A DNA stretch of 23,973 nucleotides from a virus, in IMG/VR virus record IMGVR_UViG_3300037344_000020, positions 1-23,973 of that record; one strand, given 5' to 3'. A model generated the notes under the pieces. That model was not told where the DNA came from and did not search any database. It saw only the letters and a program-made list of their open reading frames with translations. Below are positions 783-23,973 of the stretch, piece by piece; within the stretch, counting starts at the first letter, position 1, and each line of letters begins with the position of its first letter. Position numbers and translations under genes: made by a program.

Positions 783-810
783 TCATTATTCCGCCCCATT
801 TATTATCCCT
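783..810 (-). promoter_or_regulatory. Candidate phage RNA polymerase promoter, copy 3 (divergent)
   Basis: On the minus strand this shares AAAT-G-GGGCGGAATAATGA with the two other copies at 11088 and 20437, but differs in the upstream part (ATAATAAAT in place of GCCCAAAATA). All three copies lie in gene-free gaps, point leftward and precede genes. An A/T-rich stretch running into GGG is the layout of T7-family promoters, where transcription starts at GGG. This copy follows a strong terminator and would drive the membrane-protein genes at the left edge and whatever follows. Confidence 0.5.
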
Positions 811-844: not shown

Positions 845-923
845 AAAAAAAAAATAAGGATACCCCTCCCAACGCCCCTTCCATCATCCCAAAAGGGACA
901 ACAGAAGAGATGCTGGGAGGGGT
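845..923 (-). terminator. Long intrinsic terminator ending the middle unit
   Basis: On the minus strand a perfect 10-bp stem is formed by ACCCCTCCCA (923-914 as read) and TGGGAGGGGT (871-862). Inside the loop a second perfect hairpin is formed by TCCC/GGGA around TTTT (898-887). The stem is followed by TATCCTTA and ten T residues (854-845). It lies 28 nt after the stop of the AT-hook gene and directly before promoter copy 3. Confidence 0.8.
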
Positions 924-2063: not shown

Positions 2064-2201
2064 TTACAGTGGGAGGAAGCTGAAGTAAGTTAGGATTACT
2101 ACAGCTGCGTAAACCAAGGCGAGTTGAATTACGATACGAACAGTAGCCCCAAGGATAACCCCTGTTGCCTTCGCGATTTTCTCTAGGGTAGTATTAACCA
2201 T
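2064..2201 (-). CDS. 45-residue single-TM membrane peptide
   Basis: A short gene below usual length cutoffs. ATG 2201 overlaps the last codons of the ClpP-like gene by 8 nt and has GGAG 9-10 nt upstream. The peptide begins MVNTTLEKIAKATGVILG and continues with a long hydrophobic segment (about residues 13-42, including TVRIVIQLALVYAAVVIL), ending at FLPL. One transmembrane helix is expected, with a charged N-terminal amphipathic part. It is the only open frame in this gap and is coupled to the protease gene, so it may be a partner of the SbmA/ClpP cassette, but no function can be read from sequence. Confidence 0.65.
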   Translation of the reverse strand: MVNTTLEKIAKATGVILGATVRIVIQLALVYAAVVILTYFSFLPL

Positions 2202-2844
2202 TGTTGTTTGTCTCCAAGTTTTCATAAGGGTTTACGATTTCGTCGATAATGTTATAGTGTTTAGCTTCGTTAGCATTCATCCACACATCAGTAGGGCAGA
2301 GGAGCTTCTTGCGGATTTTCTTAACTGTTAGCCCTGTGCAGGCTTGGTAGTGTTGTTCCATCCAAGCGGAGGTGTGCTCAAAGGATTTCATTCGACCATA
2401 TAGCTCATGTTCTTTACCACCAGACCCTGCTGAGTATTGGTGGGACATGATTTGAGCTGTAATGGAAGCTGTTCGGCGCTTACCCGCCATGAGAGTAACA
2501 ACACCACAAGATGCTGCCATGCCTGTACAGAAGGTATCCACGGGGATTTCCGAGGACAACATAGCATCAATCAAGGTTAAACAGGAGTCAATACGACCCC
2601 CCGGACTGTTGATGATAAGTGTGATGCGTTCTGGCTGAAGCCCTTCCTCCATCAGGTTGTACTCCATGATAGAGTGTACCAGAGGGATTACCGTTTCTTG
2701 ATTGAAGCTGTCCGCTAGAGTGAGGATGCCGTTCTTGTACAAGTAAGACCCTTGCTGTTTAAGGCTGGAGGTAAGTGGGGTTGGGCCTTCTGTAGACTTA
2801 TTCTTCTTATTGTTTTTCTTAGACTTGTTTACGAAGTTAATCAT
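2194..2844 (-). CDS. ClpP-like serine protease (cytoplasmic)
   Basis: 216 residues with a complete ClpP-type triad: Ser112 in GMAASCG, His135 in IMSHQYSAG and Asp186 in CPTDVWMNANEA, followed by the usual YNIIDEIV ending. The oxyanion-side NSPGG motif is at 79-83. A Lys/Asn-rich extension of about 35 residues precedes the ClpP fold, with no hydrophobic signal, so it should act in the cytoplasm. Known ClpP proteins form barrel tetradecamers fed by ClpX/ClpA; whether this one pairs with a host unfoldase is unknown. Phage ClpP relatives often serve as head-maturation proteases, but here the gene sits in a metabolic unit, not in a head operon. ATG 2844 overlaps the SbmA-like stop (ATGA) with AAGGAA upstream, so it is coupled to the transporter. 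Confidence 0.88.
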   Translation of the reverse strand: MINFVNKSKKNNKKNKSTEGPTPLTSSLKQQGSYLYKNGILTLADSFNQETVIPLVHSIMEYNLMEEGLQPERITLIINSPGGRIDSCLTLIDAMLSSEIPVDTFCTGMAASCGVVTLMAGKRRTASITAQIMSHQYSAGSGGKEHELYGRMKSFEHTSAWMEQHYQACTGLTVKKIRKKLLCPTDVWMNANEAKHYNIIDEIVNPYENLETNNNG

Positions 2845-3809
2845 TTTGAAAGTTCCTTTTCAAACTCACGAAGACGCTTATATACAGAAAGTAGTTCAAT
2901 AATAGTTGACCAAGACTTGAAGAGATACATCATAGAGCCTTCAACACGCCCAAAGGCACGAAGGATTTGTTGCATAACACCAAGGCTGATAGCGCCCCCT
3001 ACAATAGCGGGGGCAAGGACAACATAGCCTACAAGAACGTTAGCTTGTAAGCAGGATAGACGTGCTACGTTAAACCACATATATCGGAAGTAGTTAGTGT
3101 AGTGAATCTTACGAACATCATCGAAGATTTCGTTTAGAGTCTTTGGACGAACAGTATTGTCGTCTTCCGCCTTAACTAGTATCTTACGGTAAGCAGCTTC
3201 TTTGGCTTGGATATCATATTCGATATTAACCAGACGCAAGAGCTGACCTACAACAAGTAATACTACAGTAATGCCTACTGACCAGATAATGGCAGAGGCT
3301 ACAAGGCCATACTCCCACTCACCAAAGAACGTTACGGTGAGACCCATAGAAAGACCCATGAGAATAGGGAAGAAGGCAATTAGAACCATGATAGCTTCGA
3401 TAAAGCTAGTGCCAAGACCTTCCATGATACGAGAGAACTTTACAGTATCTTCTTGTACACGTTGGGAGGCACCTTCGACTAAACGAGCCTTGTGGAATAG
3501 CTCATGGTATTTCTCAACCATAGAAGTCCGCCAGCGGAACAACCAGTGCTGAGTAAAGAAAGAAACTCCGAGAGCTACAGCGATGTAGACAGCGGCAATC
3601 TTAAAGAAAGTTAGTAGCTCTGCATAGTAGGCAGTAAGGGTGATGTCTCCCTCACCTTTCAGAGCCTGTTGAATGAGGTCGTAGAAACCGCCGAACCATT
3701 CGTTAATCTGAACGTCCAGCTGTACTTGATACCACAGTGTAGCGAGAATAAAGGCTGAGCCCAAGTAGGCCCAAAGGAACCATTGACGTGATTTAAAAAA
3801 GTCAAACAT
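2841..3809 (-). CDS. sbmA: SbmA/BacA-family inner-membrane peptide transporter
   Basis: 322 residues that resemble the bacterial SbmA/BacA family along most of the length. Visible family landmarks are FYDLIQ (42-47), FRWRTSM (91-97), EGASQRVQEDT (112-122), AAYRK and EDD in the central loop, and the C-terminal SVYKRLREFE. Several long hydrophobic helices are present. SbmA imports antimicrobial and Pro-rich peptides, microcins and bleomycin by the proton gradient; its fold resembles the membrane half of an ABC exporter and has no ATPase domain, as here. Compared with E. coli SbmA (about 406 residues) it lacks roughly the first 85-90 residues. The binding site AAGGAGATATACT before ATG is strong, close to the T7 gene 10 leader. 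It lies between two ClpP-like genes. A phage-borne SbmA is unusual. Confidence 0.88.
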   Translation of the reverse strand: MFDFFKSRQWFLWAYLGSAFILATLWYQVQLDVQINEWFGGFYDLIQQALKGEGDITLTAYYAELLTFFKIAAVYIAVALGVSFFTQHWLFRWRTSMVEKYHELFHKARLVEGASQRVQEDTVKFSRIMEGLGTSFIEAIMVLIAFFPILMGLSMGLTVTFFGEWEYGLVASAIIWSVGITVVLLVVGQLLRLVNIEYDIQAKEAAYRKILVKAEDDNTVRPKTLNEIFDDVRKIHYTNYFRYMWFNVARLSCLQANVLVGYVVLAPAIVGGAISLGVMQQILRAFGRVEGSMMYLFKSWSTIIELLSVYKRLREFEKELSK

Positions 3810-4477: not shown

Positions 4478-6349
4478 TTAGAGTATTTCGCAGGCACCTC
4501 CAACACAGGCAAGGTTTTGAGCACCTTCAGTATTGTCTTCGAATTCATACTCGGAAAGCTTGGAGAAGTCTACTGTTGGCATAGCAGCTACAGCAGCATC
4601 AAATTCTTCCTTAGTACAAGGTTGGTAAGGTGCCTGAGCGTAGGTGTGCTCAGAGTAAGGCAGGAAGCTTACACCAGTGATGTGGTCGAAGTTCTGATAG
4701 ACCCAGTCACCGACTGTCATCCATTCATCTTCCTTGACATAGACAGTAACACTCACAGAATGTTCTGACCAATGCTTCTGGAAGATTAACCAGTTCTCCA
4801 GTTGTTCGATAGCTGTCTGCTCGTTAGCCAAAGTAGCACCTGCTGGTGATTTGATGGGGAACGAGAAGATAGTTGTCTTGTTAGGGTTCATCGCATCAGG
4901 CTCGTTAGGGACGCCTTGTGCTTTGAGCATTTCTGTTAGTGGGTCGTTGTTAGCTTGACGAACTGTCCGAATGTAGTAAGGAGAGAACCGTCCGTGAATA
5001 CCCGAAGAGCTATCAACCAACTGGCTAACAGTGCCAGAGGGCTTGATTGTAGTGATAGCTGTAGCAGGGTTAATGTCAAGCTTTCGAGCGTATTCGACGT
5101 TTACTTCCTGTGCATAATCCCGAAGACGTTCAAGCATCTTAGGGTCTGGATTACGAAGAATCTTACAGTCTTGAATACCTGTCAGGCTTACACCCAGCAG
5201 ACGCTCATCTTCACAGTTCTTCTGCCAAATCTTACGAACATACTTAAACTCTGTTAAGGAGGCTTGTAGTGTTCCCAAGATAGTGGCCAGCTTAACCTTA
5301 CGCTTTAGGTCTTCTTCTGTGTCATCAACACGACAGACTACCTCTGAAAGGTTGCATAACTGATTGGAACGTAACTGAATTTCTGCACAAGGATTTGTGC
5401 CCCGTAGCAAGTCAGCGTTACGACGTTCAGGTGCAAAGGCACGAGCGCCAGCACGGTTAAAGATACCACGTTCACCAGAACCTGATTTCATTAGAGCAGT
5501 CCACTCATCCATAAACACCATCATAGACGGCTTAGAGTCGTAGGCTGCGGAGTTGTTAGCCAAGGCACGGTGTGAAGCAGTTTCCCACCAACGACCAGAC
5601 TTACAGTCACGTAGTTCAGGGTCTCCAAGGTCTGATAGGGAGATGAGTGCAGAGCGACGGACACCGCCAACTACTACTACTTCAGCAATCTTACAAACAA
5701 TGTCGTGGATTTCCTGTGGAGTTAGTTTACGACCCGCTGCCTTCTTAAAGATAGCTGTTACAAAGGACATAAGGTCTTGCAGTGGTGCTGGACCAGAAGC
5801 CCGACCACCCATAGTTTTAAGACGAGCGCCTTCAGGACGAATCTTAGAGAAGTCCCACTGGTGCATGTTGCCAAGGTATAGTTCAGCAATTAGCTTACGT
5901 AGAGACTTAGCCCAACCCTCTGAAGAGTCCTCAATTTGGATTGTTCGTTCAGAGAGGTTGAAAGTGTCATTAACAATAGGAAGCTTGTTACCTGTGATTT
6001 GTTGTGCTCCGAAGCCTACGCCAGTGCCTGACATAAGGATGTAGAGTACTTCATCGAACACACGAATGTGGTCAACGTCCGTAAAGGAGCAGTTATAAGC
6101 CCGAAACGGGTTTTGGTCGATAGCTGGACCACTCGCCCACATCGCTCTCATCGAGCCCATGACCTCGCGGTTATAAACGGCATCTCGCAGTGATGCAAAC
6201 TCTTCTTCGTTTATTGTGTTATCGCCAACCTTACCTCTCCAGAAGTTAACCATACGGTCAACTGTTTCCGCCCAAGTTTCACGGCGACCCTCAGTCTCTA
6301 GATAACGGGAGTAGCGCGACAGGTGTATAAAGCTCTCATAGTTGTTCAT
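4478..6349 (-). CDS. nrdJ: Class II (B12-dependent) ribonucleotide reductase
   Basis: 623 residues. It reduces ribonucleotides (likely triphosphates) to deoxyribonucleotides with adenosylcobalamin as the radical source. Landmarks: Cys87 in AYNCSF, and NPCAEIQLRSNQLC with Cys321, Glu323 and Cys332 spaced as Cys408/Glu410/Cys419 in the monomeric Lactobacillus enzyme. The C-terminal redox pair is Cys615/Cys620 in ACVGGACEIL, which receives electrons from thioredoxin or glutaredoxin. The length is shorter than the Lactobacillus enzyme (739). No NrdB-like partner is present, as expected for class II. The enzyme works with or without oxygen but needs cobalamin from the host or surroundings. The ATG overlaps the stop of the upstream HNH gene (ATGA), with AAGGAAAT upstream. 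The phage glutaredoxin lies about 3 kb downstream. Confidence 0.93.
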   Translation of the reverse strand: MNNYESFIHLSRYSRYLETEGRRETWAETVDRMVNFWRGKVGDNTINEEEFASLRDAVYNREVMGSMRAMWASGPAIDQNPFRAYNCSFTDVDHIRVFDEVLYILMSGTGVGFGAQQITGNKLPIVNDTFNLSERTIQIEDSSEGWAKSLRKLIAELYLGNMHQWDFSKIRPEGARLKTMGGRASGPAPLQDLMSFVTAIFKKAAGRKLTPQEIHDIVCKIAEVVVVGGVRRSALISLSDLGDPELRDCKSGRWWETASHRALANNSAAYDSKPSMMVFMDEWTALMKSGSGERGIFNRAGARAFAPERRNADLLRGTNPCAEIQLRSNQLCNLSEVVCRVDDTEEDLKRKVKLATILGTLQASLTEFKYVRKIWQKNCEDERLLGVSLTGIQDCKILRNPDPKMLERLRDYAQEVNVEYARKLDINPATAITTIKPSGTVSQLVDSSSGIHGRFSPYYIRTVRQANNDPLTEMLKAQGVPNEPDAMNPNKTTIFSFPIKSPAGATLANEQTAIEQLENWLIFQKHWSEHSVSVTVYVKEDEWMTVGDWVYQNFDHITGVSFLPYSEHTYAQAPYQPCTKEEFDAAVAAMPTVDFSKLSEYEFEDNTEGAQNLACVGGACEIL

Positions 6350-9887: not shown

Positions 9888-10385
9888 TTAGTATTTCCTT
9901 TTGATTGCTTTGATATACTTACGAGTATTGTCAGTGACAGCTTCTTTAGGTACAAACCTAATAGCTGCGATTTGTCGGTTGTAGAATCGGGGGGTCTTGT
10001 TGTCTTCTAACATCTCAGTCATAGACTCTGAAACCATTTGAGAGTAGGCCTCAGAATAGTACAAGCCACCTTTTGTGTTATAGACATCTACAATCTCGAA
10101 CTTAAACTTATCGTGTCCTTGTTTTGCGATATCAGCTTTGAGATGTACTGACGAACCTGTGTAGGTCCGCCATGTCATTTCTTTACCATAGGTTACTGAT
10201 TTCTTCTTACCTCCGTGGAAGAATTGTTTCTTACCCCAATAGAACTGGTTTGTTTCTGTGTTTTGTATACAGTACAAAAAGCCAAATACATCAGAAGGAT
10301 TAAACTTAAACTTACAGTCCCAATGACCGATTTCATCCTTTGATAGCGGCTTCGTATACTTCTTGTTTGACTTTGAAGTGGTCAT
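9888..10385 (-). CDS. SegE-like GIY-YIG endonuclease
   Basis: 165 residues. The pattern FGFLYCIQNTETNQFYWGKK (start about 34) corresponds to the GIY...YIG strands in degenerate form. WRTYTGSS then LKADIAKQGHDKFKFEIV and LYYSEAYSQ, with a Glu as the likely metal ligand, follow in the order seen in SegE-type GIY-YIG proteins. FYNRQI matches the usual C-terminal Asn motif. Such free-standing homing enzymes cut phage DNA near their own gene. It overlaps the exonuclease 3' end by 53 nt; GGAG is 9 nt before ATG 10385. The assignment rests on motif pattern only; whether it still cuts is open. Confidence 0.7.
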   Translation of the reverse strand: MTTSKSNKKYTKPLSKDEIGHWDCKFKFNPSDVFGFLYCIQNTETNQFYWGKKQFFHGGKKKSVTYGKEMTWRTYTGSSVHLKADIAKQGHDKFKFEIVDVYNTKGGLYYSEAYSQMVSESMTEMLEDNKTPRFYNRQIAAIRFVPKEAVTDNTRKYIKAIKRKY

Positions 10386-11055
10386 TGATTTTTCTCCAGA
10401 TGTGAATTAGGCGACCATTGGCAACCATGTAGGCATAGCCCTCATCGCCGTAAACGTCATGATAAGCACGGCATACTACATCACGCATTTCTTTGTGAGT
10501 AGTAGCGCCTTCTAACATCTTCTTAGCTTTGACAGGTCCAACCTTCCACAAGCCCGGTATGGCGTCAACACTGTCCCCTGTTAGTACTTGTTGCCAGTAG
10601 AACCGACCTGCATACTCTTCATCAATCTGGTAAATCTTCTTTGTTCGTGGGTTATAGTGAGTACCAACAATACAATGTAAGTCTTTATCAACAGAAACAA
10701 CAGCACAGTTAATACCTGCTGCCTTACATTCCAAAGCCCATACACGTACTAGGTCATCAGCTTCACAGTTATCAGACTCCACAGAGCCTTCTAGTTTACT
10801 AGCCCAAGACTTCAAGTCATTAAACCAATCAGGTCTATTGTCTTTGGCTTTCTTCCGATTCCCTTTATAGTCAGAGAACAGGTCCAATCGAAAGTTGTCA
10901 GGACCACCAATGGCCATAACGTAGTCTGTAGTAAACAAGCTATTAATAACATCATCTACGAGTTCTTGGAACTTGGTCTTTGCTTCTTCTAGTGATTCAC
11001 TCTTCCAGATAGCCATGTACACTAGAACATCGCCGTCAATTATAGCCATAGTCAT
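10333..11055 (-). CDS. 5'-3' exonuclease, FEN/T7 gp6-like
   Basis: 240 residues with the metal-binding acids of the flap-endonuclease family: Asp7 and Asp9 (IIDGDVLVY), YKGNR (63-67), EADD (98-101), SVDKDL (121-126) and GDSVDAIPGLWKVGPVKAKK (160-179), which includes the helix-three-turn-helix for DNA binding. In T7 the related gp6 removes RNA primers and degrades host DNA. ATG 11055 has AAAGGA 8 nt upstream. It is the first gene after promoter copy A, which suggests strong expression. The 3' end overlaps the GIY-YIG gene. Confidence 0.92.
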   Translation of the reverse strand: MTMAIIDGDVLVYMAIWKSESLEEAKTKFQELVDDVINSLFTTDYVMAIGGPDNFRLDLFSDYKGNRKKAKDNRPDWFNDLKSWASKLEGSVESDNCEADDLVRVWALECKAAGINCAVVSVDKDLHCIVGTHYNPRTKKIYQIDEEYAGRFYWQQVLTGDSVDAIPGLWKVGPVKAKKMLEGATTHKEMRDVVCRAYHDVYGDEGYAYMVANGRLIHIWRKINDHFKVKQEVYEAAIKG

Positions 11056-11087
11056 AGTAATATTCCTTTAGTTAGGAGAGACCCTTG

Positions 11088-11120
11088 GTCATTATTCCGC
11101 CCTATTTTGGGCTTTATTTT
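11088..11120 (-). promoter_or_regulatory. Candidate phage RNA polymerase promoter, copy A
   Basis: 25 bp (11088-11112) are identical to copy B at 20437-20461. On the minus strand it reads GCCCAAAATAGGGCGG then AATAATGAC, preceded by an A/T-rich stretch. GGG after ATA resembles the T7 start region (ATAGGG). If GGG is +1 (about 11102), the leader before the exonuclease ATG is close to 47 nt. GCCC/GGGC could also pair as a 4-bp hairpin. Confidence 0.6.
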
Positions 11121-11122
11121 TA

Positions 11123-12437: not shown

Positions 12438-12785
12438 TTATGCGTCGGACCCATTAGCGAAGCCTTCCGCGTAGCCTTCATCACGACCTTCGTCATAACC
12501 CGCTTCACGGCCACTGTCATAGCCACCTTCGTAACCCTCTTCACGACCGTCTTCACGACCTTCGTCATAACCCGCTTCACGGCCACTGTCATAGCCGCCC
12601 TCATAATGGGCTTCTGCTTCTGTAGTACACCCTGACATAGCCTCTACGACACACGCCTCTTCCAAGTCTTCGAGTAGTGCCACAAGGTCAAGGTCTAGCT
12701 CCAGAGTATCGTGGCCTTTGACCTCTGTGTAAAAACGGTCAAACATTATGCGAATAGTTTCTTCTACTGAGTAAGTTGCAGTCAT
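12438..12785 (-). CDS. Acidic protein with Gly/Glu/Arg/Tyr tandem repeats
   Basis: 115 residues. The first 60 form an acidic helical region (LELDLDLVALLEDLEEACVV). The rest is a repeat tract built on GYDEGR and GREEGY units: YEGGYDSGREAGYDEGR occurs twice, 24 residues apart. The tract is hydrophilic and probably extended or weakly coiled. Similar GxxxGRxxGY tracts occur in flagellar FliH and type III secretion proteins as helix-dimerising GxxxG repeats. ATG overlaps the upstream gene by 4 nt with GGAG upstream. A function cannot be given; self-association is a reasonable guess. Confidence 0.7.
   Translation of the reverse strand: MTATYSVEETIRIMFDRFYTEVKGHDTLELDLDLVALLEDLEEACVVEAMSGCTTEAEAHYEGGYDSGREAGYDEGREDGREEGYEGGYDSGREAGYDEGRDEGYAEGFANGSDA
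12481..12596. repeat. 72-bp tandem repeat within the 115-residue gene
   Basis: Bases 12481-12524 (44 nt) recur exactly at 12553-12596, an offset of 72 nt (24 codons). The copies are identical even at synonymous positions, so the duplication is recent or kept similar by recombination. Confidence 0.85.
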
Positions 12786-13015
12786 TGTGTTTCTCCAATA
12801 CGTTCCATTTCAATCATTACAGCTACGTCGTTAACAGCTGACCCGTCAGTGTATTCTCCTTCTAACTCCATGTCTACGCCAATCATGTCGTAGCCATACG
12901 AGTCAAGAAGTTTGTTAGCCAAGTCGTTATAATCTAAGGCTTCACTCATTTCGATAAAGACTACACCTTCTTCAGACTCATACCAACCTGAAATTTGGAT
13001 TTCATCATAGTTCAT
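12782..13015 (-). CDS. Small acidic protein, unknown function
   Basis: 77 residues starting MNYDEIQISGWYESEEGVVF, strongly acidic, with alternating strands and a helix (EALDYNDLANKLLDSYGYD). It ends GETQ, encoded by the same GGAGAAACACAA that serves as the binding site of the next gene. ATGA overlaps exist on both sides, with the Ala-rich gene before and the repeat protein after. No family recognised. Confidence 0.7.
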   Translation of the reverse strand: MNYDEIQISGWYESEEGVVFIEMSEALDYNDLANKLLDSYGYDMIGVDMELEGEYTDGSAVNDVAVMIEMERIGETQ

Positions 13016-13374
13016 TGTGTTTCTCCATTGTTTAGTTCAGCATAATAAGCATCACGAGCACGATAAGCAGCATCATAAGCGGTATAAGCAGCATCCCAAG
13101 CAGCATCAGAAGCAGCCTTCAGTTCTTCTAGTTTAGTCATTGGCTTGTTCCTTTGTTGGTTTAGTTCAGCTTGATAAGCATCACGGGCAGCATCAGCAGC
13201 AACACGAGCAGCATCATAAGCATTATAAGCAGCAGCAGCCTCAGCATCAGCAGCACGATGAGCAGCATAAGCGTCAGCATAAGCAGCTTCAGAAACAGCA
13301 TAAGCATCACGAGCATCATAAGCGTCAGCATCAGCAGCAACATGAGCAGCTTTTAGTTCCTCTAGTTTAGTCAT
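13012..13374 (-). CDS. Ala-rich repeat protein, fused double copy
   Basis: 120 residues, about half Ala, with Asp, Tyr and Arg (AADAEAAAAYNAYDAARVAA). A continuous or coiled helix is expected. Two MTKLEELKAA units occur in one frame, at residues 1 and 79. The junction, NQQRNKP then Met79, is encoded by AAAGGAACAAGCC, which matches the intergenic binding site before the neighbouring copy (AAAGGAACAACCTA). So two genes appear to have fused by losing a stop codon or by a frame change. The internal ATG at 13140 could still start a 42-residue product. It overlaps genes on both sides (ATGA). Function unknown. Confidence 0.7.
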   Translation of the reverse strand: MTKLEELKAAHVAADADAYDARDAYAVSEAAYADAYAAHRAADAEAAAAYNAYDAARVAADAARDAYQAELNQQRNKPMTKLEELKAASDAAWDAAYTAYDAAYRARDAYYAELNNGETQ

Positions 13375-13520
13375 TTGTTTGTTTCCTTTTTCAGTTCAGC
13401 TTCATACGCAATCCAAGCATCAGAAGCAGCCCAAGCATCCTCACGAGCAGCATCAGCAGCAGCATCAGCAGCATCACGTTTAGCATCAGCAGCTGCCTTT
13501 AGTTCCTCTAGTTTAGTCAT
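13371..13520 (-). CDS. Ala-rich repeat protein, single copy
   Basis: 49 residues from ATG 13520 (MTKLEELKAAADAKRDAADA); the frame extends to 13553 but that part is the end of the upstream gene read in another frame, and AAAGGA lies about 9 nt before ATG 13520. Composition is dominated by Ala, Asp and Arg with an AEL-KKETNK end. A single helix is likely. The C-terminus is almost the same as in the partial relative at the right edge of the window (YEAELKKET). The stop overlaps the next paralogue's ATG. Confidence 0.7.
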   Translation of the reverse strand: MTKLEELKAAADAKRDAADAAADAAREDAWAASDAWIAYEAELKKETNK

Positions 13521-13818
13521 TAGGTTGTTCCTTTGTTTTATAATAACGCTCATAGATGTTTACAAGCCCCTTCTTATCGGGGTGTTTCCGAACCCACATA
13601 CCTGTAGCGGGTTCAAAGTGTTTCTTAAAGAAGGTATCCATCTTGCGATTACCAGTAGCTATACTAGTATCAACAAGGTAGGACAACCTATCAAACTCCG
13701 CATCAGGCATTATGCTGTCGCTCTTATACTCGTAAGCAAAAGCAGCAACAGATAGTTTGATGCGAAGTCTTATTTGTTCACTCTTCGACTGCAAAGTAGG
13801 TGTTGGTTGATTGGACAT
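13513..13818 (-). CDS. Unknown protein with a LigA Ia-like motif
   Basis: 101 residues. AFAYEYKSDSIMPDAEFDRL (about residues 26-45) resembles the N-terminal Ia motif of NAD-dependent DNA ligase (Y-x-Y-x-x-D-x-x-x-PDAEYDRL), which binds the nicotinamide part of NAD. The ligase adenylation domain and the KxDG lysine motif are absent, and the rest (MDTFFKKHFEPATGMWVRK, NIYERYYK) is not familiar. It could be a remnant, an NAD-binding accessory protein, or unrelated. AAGGGGTGG precedes ATG; the start overlaps the upstream gene by 41 nt. Confidence 0.65.
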   Translation of the reverse strand: MSNQPTPTLQSKSEQIRLRIKLSVAAFAYEYKSDSIMPDAEFDRLSYLVDTSIATGNRKMDTFFKKHFEPATGMWVRKHPDKKGLVNIYERYYKTKEQPND

Positions 13819-19797: not shown

Positions 19798-19829
19798 AAA
19801 AAAGGCCACCCCGTTATTGGGATGACCTT
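19798..19829 (-). terminator. Intrinsic terminator after SSB
   Basis: On the minus strand AAGGTCATCCC (19829-19819) pairs over 11 bp, two of them G-U, with GGGGTGGCCTT (19812-19802) around an AATAAC loop. It is followed by a T-run (19803-19798). It begins 11 nt after the SSB stop and would isolate SSB as a short transcript from promoter copy B. Confidence 0.8.
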
Positions 19830-19840
19830 AGTATTATAGC

Positions 19841-20374
19841 TTAGAAGTCCATGTCTGAGTCGTCGCCAACCATGTCAGCATCTACAGCTTGGTTGTCGGC
19901 AACTTTGTTTACTTTGAACTCTGTAGGAGCAAAGCCACCTTGCTTTGGTACAGGCTTGTACTCGTTAAGCGTGGTCACCTGTACGCCCATCAGCATAGAG
20001 GCAATACCGTCCTTGCCGTTCATGTTGTAGTCATACTGGAATACAGACAAGTTGGCGATAGAACCGTTGCCGATAGTAGCAGGGTCTACGGCTGACAAAT
20101 CGCCGCCTACAACGTTTACAGGTTGCATATCGGAACCATCACGCTTCTTAGATTTCTTCTTTAAGTTAGCGCGGTAGAATACACCATCGTCGTTCTCGTC
20201 TGGAGTAACGCGAAGGTTCTGTTCTTTCCAGCCTTTAGCAACAGCTTTGTCTTTAGTACGAATCTGAACTTCCCATGTTGGGAAATCTTTGTCGAAGCGA
20301 GAGTTAGGGTTTGCTGGGTCAAGCTTAGCAAAGAAAAGTTCAACGTTAGACAGAATGATTGTGTTGTTAGCCAT
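19841..20374 (-). CDS. Single-stranded DNA-binding protein, T7 gp2.5-like
   Basis: 177 residues. The overall form follows gp2.5-like SSBs: an OB-type domain with ELFFAKLDPANPNSRF near the N-terminus, a middle with basic loop LKKKSKKRDGS, and a strongly acidic tail that ends in an aromatic residue (DMVGDDSDMDF). In T7, that tail with its last Phe contacts polymerase and helicase. The protein is expected to coat single-stranded DNA at the fork. It lies alone between promoter copy B and a terminator, which fits a need for high expression. AGGAAGAAATTATC precedes ATG. Confidence 0.85.
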   Translation of the reverse strand: MANNTIILSNVELFFAKLDPANPNSRFDKDFPTWEVQIRTKDKAVAKGWKEQNLRVTPDENDDGVFYRANLKKKSKKRDGSDMQPVNVVGGDLSAVDPATIGNGSIANLSVFQYDYNMNGKDGIASMLMGVQVTTLNEYKPVPKQGGFAPTEFKVNKVADNQAVDADMVGDDSDMDF

Positions 20375-20436
20375 GATAATTTCTTCCTTTTGGGATGTGA
20401 TTGGGATTTGTATTGTGTGTGTTTGGACTAGTATTA

Positions 20437-20470
20437 GTCATTATTCCGCCCTATTTTGGGCCTTATTTTA
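20437..20470 (-). promoter_or_regulatory. Candidate phage RNA polymerase promoter, copy B
   Basis: Bases 20437-20461 are identical to 11088-11112. On the minus strand AAAATAAGGCCCAAAATA runs into GGGCGGAATAATGAC. The copy starts in the last base pairs of the 72-residue gene and precedes SSB with a leader of about 78 nt from the GGG. It lies shortly after the RNA polymerase gene, as the first middle promoter would. Confidence 0.6.
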
Positions 20471-23849: not shown

Positions 23850-23973
23850 TTTGTTTCCTTTTTCAGTTCAGCTTCATAAGCCTCGTAAGCAGCATCAGCA
23901 TCACGAGCAGCATCCCAAGCAGCAGCCCAAGAAGCATCACGAGCAGCATCCCAAGCAGCAGCATCACAAGCAG
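23846..23973 (-). CDS. Ala-rich repeat protein, 5' end beyond window edge
   Basis: Only the last 41 full codons are visible. They repeat a four-residue unit DAA(W/R): AWDAARDASWAAAWDAARDA, then AYEAYEAELKKETK and stop. The end is nearly that of the copy at 13371-13520 (YEAELKKETNK), so this is a distant member of the MTKLEELKAA family about 10 kb away. Long GCT/GAT codon repeats are visible in DNA. Its start lies outside the window. Confidence 0.75.
   Translation of the reverse strand, partial: ACDAAAWDAARDASWAAAWDAARDADAAYEAYEAELKKETK

Follow-up and report, generated by a model that had tools for sequence, protein, structure and literature searches.

The window, which is the whole 23,973-bp stretch of DNA analysed here and represents a fragment of a virus genome, encodes a T7-type single-subunit RNA polymerase, a Gp2.5-like SSB and a 5'-3' exonuclease on its minus strand (Table 1). 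The 14-mer GGGCGGAATAATGA occurred in exactly three exact copies (783-796, 11089-11102 and 20438-20451; minus strand in each case), and a search allowing up to 3 mismatches added none in the window. The two right-hand copies belong to an exact 25-bp identity, GTCATTATTCCGCCCTATTTTGGGC, shared by 11088-11112 and 20437-20461 and contained in a longer repeat family (D7). With a chance expectation of ~0.0002 for a given 14-mer in 24 kb, neither three exact copies nor a 25-bp repeat is expected. All three copies were located within gaps between same-direction ORFs, namely the SSB-side gap (20375-20467), the exonuclease-side gap (~11056-11122) and a left-edge gap (676-950) ahead of small membrane genes. 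The SSB copy lies downstream of the RNA polymerase gene and a 72-aa ORF, and the copy at 783, which has AATG instead of AATA immediately upstream of GGGCGGAATAATGA, follows a large terminator-like hairpin. The initial annotation had described the 25-bp identity with a third copy near 783, the gene-free and leftward placement ahead of the SSB, exonuclease and left-edge membrane genes, and the position of two copies soon after a polymerase unit or a terminator; these descriptions held, the identity by exact match and the orientation in 3/3 copies. A small inverted repeat, GCCC-AAAATA-GGGC, is present at two copies and was rejected as a common element, being missing in most copies.

Table 1 Polymerase gene, predicted promoters and neighbouring features of the window
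Feature	Coordinates	Strand	Basis or layout
T7-type single-subunit RNA polymerase, 747 aa	20646..22889	-	Pfam RNA_pol 8.5e-79; phmmer to T7 RNAP 1.6e-53
Predicted promoter 1 (SSB)	20438..20456	-	-17 at 20456; AATA 20455-20452 (-16 to -13); GGGCGGAA 20451-20444 (-12 to -5)
Predicted promoter 1 (SSB), right half	20443-20440	-	TAAT (-4 to -1); predicted +1 G 20439
Predicted promoter 2 (exonuclease operon)	11089..11107	-	Layout as promoter 1; predicted +1 G 11090, 35 nt before exonuclease start
Predicted promoter 3 (left-edge small membrane genes)	783..801	-	Layout as promoter 1 but AATG at -16 to -13; predicted +1 G 784
SSB (Gp2.5-like), first gene of promoter 1	19841..20374	-	PHROG 112; start at 20374
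5'-3' exonuclease, first gene of promoter 2	10333..11055	-	Pfam/PHROG; start at 11055
Terminator-like hairpin and T run directly after SSB	19802..19829	-
Large terminator-like hairpin, then T run, just upstream of promoter 3	862..923	-	Arms 862-890/895-923

The hairpin directly after SSB would keep the promoter 1 transcript short. The arrangement of a large hairpin with a promoter, as at 862..923, was also found in the relatives G002, G021 and DSS3_VP1. Elsewhere in the window, an SbmA/BacA-family transporter gene (PF05992, 4e-123), which is unusual for a phage, lies near a class II (B12-dependent) ribonucleotide reductase gene (2841-3809 and 4478-6349, both on the minus strand). BacA-like proteins can import cobalamin, and the transporter may supply the reductase. 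A ClpP-like or head maturation protease-like protein (2194-2844, minus strand) adjoins the transporter gene. Near-repetitive 12-nt units (CAGCATAAGCAG..., CCTTCGTCATAA...) were observed in consecutive ORFs (12438-13818 and 23850-23973, minus strand) and apparently encode repeated low-complexity protein segments. Rfam gave chance-level matches only, and no tRNAs were found in the window.

The 747-aa polymerase is ~25% identical to T7 RNAP, keeps the catalytic residues D537, R627, K631, M635, Y639 and D812, and has the T7 fold with a FAFA-type C terminus. Its specificity hairpin, TVKLSHNGTRMELEF, spans approximately residues 620-648, where a long hairpin appeared in the AF2 model (pLDDT 86.7), and the T7 RNAP-promoter complex 1cez gave the top TM-score among the Foldseek matches listed (TMq 0.78). 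The residues equivalent to T7 746, 748, 756 and 758 are T, K, R and E, respectively. A perfect TTGACA-17-TATAAT sequence within the polymerase gene (22129-22101, minus strand), pointing in the reading direction, was rejected as a candidate: its -35 is not kept in relatives and its occurrence is probably due to chance.

Promoters beyond the window were predicted from relatives. In two of these from IMG/VR, all copies of the motif lay on one strand (4/4 in G001, 46,974 bp, with a 90% identical polymerase; 5/5 in G002, 68,954 bp), and the extra copies formed a tandem pair immediately ahead of the portal gene, with a spacing of ~108-111 bp. The initial annotation had proposed a scan for the motif before late genes and had named opposite-orientation copies as contrary evidence; none was reversed in the window (3/3), G002 (5/5) or G001 (4/4). 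In a second lineage, comprising G006 and others with a 50% identical polymerase, AATAGCTGACCTTAAAGA and its variants were found, and the three aligned families (window, DSS3_VP1 and the G006 lineage) shared AATA, eight variable bases, TAAT or TAAA, and GA. Matches to this generic frame were all on a single strand per contig in 22/22 contigs with matches.

An earlier information-content profile was circular for -12 to +2, its copies having been selected by that pattern; the unbiased sets are the protein-anchored ones, in which relatives were gathered by their portal, exonuclease or SSB protein without use of the motif. In these sets, a frame site preceded SSB by 50-110 bp in 35/37 loci (antisense control 0), the exonuclease by 40-90 bp in 24/41 loci (antisense control 0), and the portal gene by 90-300 bp in 45/71 loci (antisense control 3). 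Nearly all of the exonuclease loci lacking a site encoded distant exonucleases with 31-35% identity. Among 78 polymerase relatives, 62 had a site at most 460 bp downstream of the polymerase gene; the other 16, mostly of the L422-L436 lineage, had no site by the pattern used, and the frame of that lineage may differ. The polymerase loop of L422-L436 reads RTKLKYGEEELK, and no common-frame site occurs downstream of the gene. A scan of IMG/VR with the 14-mer GGGCGGAATAATGA was set aside as a source of members: many of its 119 loci were unrelated chance or coding matches, and only those with the AT-rich flank belonged to the group. No clear class emerged from a de novo motif search in L133, and in the Pelagibacter phage Kolga (polymerase 31% identical) no matching motif was found above chance.

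The tandem portal promoters bracket an element of ~85-100 nt with two hairpins (L165:10054-10320 in G002, minus strand; equivalents in L006, L057, L068, L097 and L101). The first hairpin is conserved in sequence (GGACAGACUCUCAAG..GUCUGACAGUCC), the second differs in sequence with its stem kept, and T-rich DNA follows the latter in several of them. The element may represent either a small phage RNA or a terminator-leader; it had no Rfam match, and its motif was unmatched outside the clade in the genomes scanned.

Across the relatives, 20 distinct 8-base recognition blocks were identified in one conserved frame, AATA-N8-T(A/T)A(A/T) followed by GA, in which the right-hand tetranucleotide is TAAT, TTAT or TAAA. 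In this frame the GGG occupies -12 to -10, and transcription would begin at the G of GA. The AT-rich element, from -17 to -13, reads AAATA or AAATG in nearly all copies, with AATA kept across the 20 classes; the 8-bp block at -12 to -5 varies between polymerase types, and a TATA-like -4 to -1 and a purine at +1 are likewise present. The blocks, including GGGCGGAA, GGGTCCCC, CTTGACCC, CCCGCAAA, CTTGCAGA and CTTCGCCC, are swapped as whole units among close relatives. The two sites of a tandem pair were nearly always of one class; contig-wide scans returned a single class per contig, a few chance-level matches aside, and a single strand per contig. The CACTA core of the T7, T3, K11 and SP6 promoters was not found in this promoter, which has GGAATAAT in its place; that core is characteristic of the enterobacterial set, is also missing from the Syn5 promoter, and was not taken as defining. 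Further upstream, at about -32 to -22, an AT-rich stretch, TAAAAATAAGG, is common to many class members (L024, L087, L015 and others) and lies outside the region known to be read by T7 polymerase.

Covariation between the specificity loop and the promoter was assessed from a polymerase-alignment search that yielded 78 usable relatives, by comparing loop residues with the eight promoter positions (136 pairs). The top three residue-base pairs were 746/-7, 758/-8 and 748/-11 (0, 0 and 1 of 2000 permutations, respectively), and the 756/-9 pair was weaker but raised (p 0.0045). In T7 RNAP, N748 contacts -10/-11, R756 contacts -9 and Q758 contacts -8 (PMC5937735), and R746 lies near -6/-7 (PMC6486633); the top covarying pairs coincide with these contacts. 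An acidic residue at 748 accompanied C at -11/-10 with no exception (7 blocks against 13 without; Fisher 1.3e-5), and R746 accompanied C at -7 in 12/12. At position 758, Q went with T at -8, K or R with C or A, and an acidic residue or W with G. From their own records, T3 combines D748 with CC and K11 combines K748 with GGG, but a K748 class with CTTCGCCC breaks a simple lysine-GG rule.

The 20 blocks are not phylogenetically independent, and the polymerase tree was built without the loop. On this tree the 20 classes need 19 changes, which is the minimum, so that every class belongs to a single polymerase clade. Five switches were counted for each of the 748 and 758 traits, with a concordant base change in 5/5 (sign test p 0.0625), and the 746 trait was concordant in 2/2 supported pairs. 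Covariation and the register test described below point, indirectly and over about five independent switches, to recognition through the residues equivalent to T7 746, 748, 756 and 758.

The residue-base covariation and its match with the T7 contacts tie the motif to the polymerase and fix the numbering, with GGGCGGAA at -12 to -5 and +1 at the G of GA. In the register test, the summed MI over the four contacts was 4.16 here, compared with no more than 2.41 after any displacement by 1-4 bases, and 0/5000 permutations attained 4.16. Position, orientation, frame, recurrence, covariation, register and the agreement of class within contigs are read from the sequences, and from them we infer transcription, the exact +1 and a loss of cross-recognition between classes. 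On these grounds, the motif is very probably the promoter of the phage's own T7-type single-subunit RNA polymerase, and the predicted promoter of the 747-aa enzyme is AAAATAGGGCGGAATAATGA. The polymerase would read the AT-rich AATA (-16 to -13), its specificity hairpin in the major groove would read GGGCGGAA, and TAAT (-4 to -1) would be melted for initiation at the G of GA. The promoters of the window would serve SSB, a replication operon headed by the exonuclease and the left-edge genes, and in near-complete relatives the two further tandem copies would drive the portal gene. Other relatives carry the common frame at equivalent places with other recognition blocks, each fitted to its own polymerase loop.

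The initial annotation had already proposed the promoter family of the 747-residue polymerase, an assignment supported by copies that point with the genes, recur before the same genes and change their block with the specificity loop. Its +1 at the GGG falls 12 bases too early, as covariation fits only the register with GGG at -12 to -10, and the invariance of GGGCGGAATAATGA, which it took for an unusually conserved transcribed part, reflects a recognition element rather than a transcribed leader. A polymerase promoter starting at the first G of GGGCGG, with GGGCGGAATAATGA as conserved leader, is indeed very unlikely: T7-family promoters often begin at GGG and AT-rich DNA lies ahead of it here, but the exchanged block is exactly GGGCGGAA while TAAT and GA stay constant, covariation collapses at other registers, and the frame-aligned DSS3_VP1 site, AATAGGGTGCGTTAAAGA, matches the T7, T3 and K11 promoters from their records. 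An RNA processing site, a leader element, or a DNA site of another phage protein acting in replication or packaging before key genes is extremely improbable. The invariance of the motif within the clade and the inverted repeat at two copies could suggest such a role, but most copies lack the inverted repeat, and the site varies together with the polymerase loop, following the identity of the polymerase rather than that of the downstream gene. The chance of a host sigma-factor promoter is practically negligible, since AATAAT resembles a -10 hexamer but has no conserved -35 at the right spacing, TAAT gives way to TTAT or TAAA in different classes, the block upstream of it follows the loop of the phage polymerase, and sigma-70-like sites in the window are at about chance level.

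With the motif read as a promoter of the phage polymerase, phages whose SSB is 95-98% identical can have different polymerases and a difference at every promoter examined, and the copies within a contig agree. Contig 3300031589_000016 has an SSB with 98% protein and 94.6% DNA identity to that of the window, and the DNA flanking its promoter matches exactly over tens of bases on the downstream side and almost exactly on the upstream side, whereas the ~12-bp promoter core differs (GGGCGGAATAAT against CTTGACCCTTAT) and the polymerase gene shows 58% DNA identity over its last 1150 bp. The exonuclease promoter and a third site of this contig are also of the CTTGACCC class. Conversely, G002, with 87% identical SSB and 90% identical polymerase, kept the window's promoter class. 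Judged by these comparisons, the predicted promoter class tracks the polymerase and not the neighbouring gene. Tentatively, such phages might form transcriptional incompatibility groups, in which the polymerase and all dispersed promoters would switch in concert via replacement of a ~12-bp core in near-identical DNA, and co-infecting, otherwise recombining relatives would stay transcriptionally private. Outside subscription papers, the literature search found nothing on point about promoters of DSS3_VP1 or of the window's phage group, or about natural concerted switching.

The motif itself and each of its components are of an already known kind; what is unusual is that polymerase-promoter pairs, switched in concert, have radiated in nature. 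About 20 such natural pairs in one frame are enough to read and test a T7-type amino acid-base recognition code, and the family also supplies candidates for transcription pairs that are mutually independent. A differing signal at equivalent places, together with a matching polymerase change, constitutes a natural record of DNA recognition by such enzymes.

Compared with T7, T3, K11 and SP6, the promoter shares the AT-rich -17 to -13, the 8-bp specificity block at -12 to -5, the TA-rich -4 to -1 and a purine at +1; the T7 layout, TAATA-CGACTCAC-TATA followed by the +1 G, matches, as do those of T3 and K11 read from their own records. The recognition chemistry is also alike, with acidic 748 and C as in T3, Lys 748 and GG as in K11, Q758 and T at -8, and R746 and C at -7. 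The differences are a start at GA rather than GGG, the absence of their common CAC(T) core from GGGCGGAA, and only 5 copies per genome. The promoter of the cyanophage Syn5 consists of ATTGGGCACCCGTAA and then GGG (PMC3950665); Syn5 is similarly a marine phage with a short polymerase (779 aa) and has GGGC at the left of its recognition block, but the spacing and right half are different and the polymerase is only 25% identical. The nearest named relatives are the Ruegeria phages DSS3_VP1 and PM1 (Naomviridae), with 46% identical polymerase. DSS3_VP1 carries a homologous intergenic family, AATAGGGTGCGTTAAAGA (AATAGGGTGCGTTAAAGAGGGG and variants), in 14 plus-strand (the gene strand) and 0 minus-strand copies (0.16 expected), located before the portal gene (3 copies), downstream of a large terminator and ahead of the gene cluster that follows the polymerase; it differs in its recognition block (GGKDRCGT), its 14 copies and the location of some of them inside genes. 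The window's phage is a possible member of the Naomviridae: in a comparison limited to the polymerase, DNA polymerase, exonuclease, primase-helicase and terminator-promoter unit, some of the order is common to DSS3_VP1/PM1, but the window encodes a class II ribonucleotide reductase where DSS3_VP1 and PM1 have a two-subunit enzyme. Laboratory adaptation of T7 likewise confronted a phage promoter network with a polymerase of new specificity, and 4-5 of 16 promoters changed when T7 was forced onto the re-targeted enzyme (PMC6171733). The laboratory switch was only partial, whereas here a new class was found at every promoter examined per contig, which provides natural cases of a whole promoter network switched to a new specificity.
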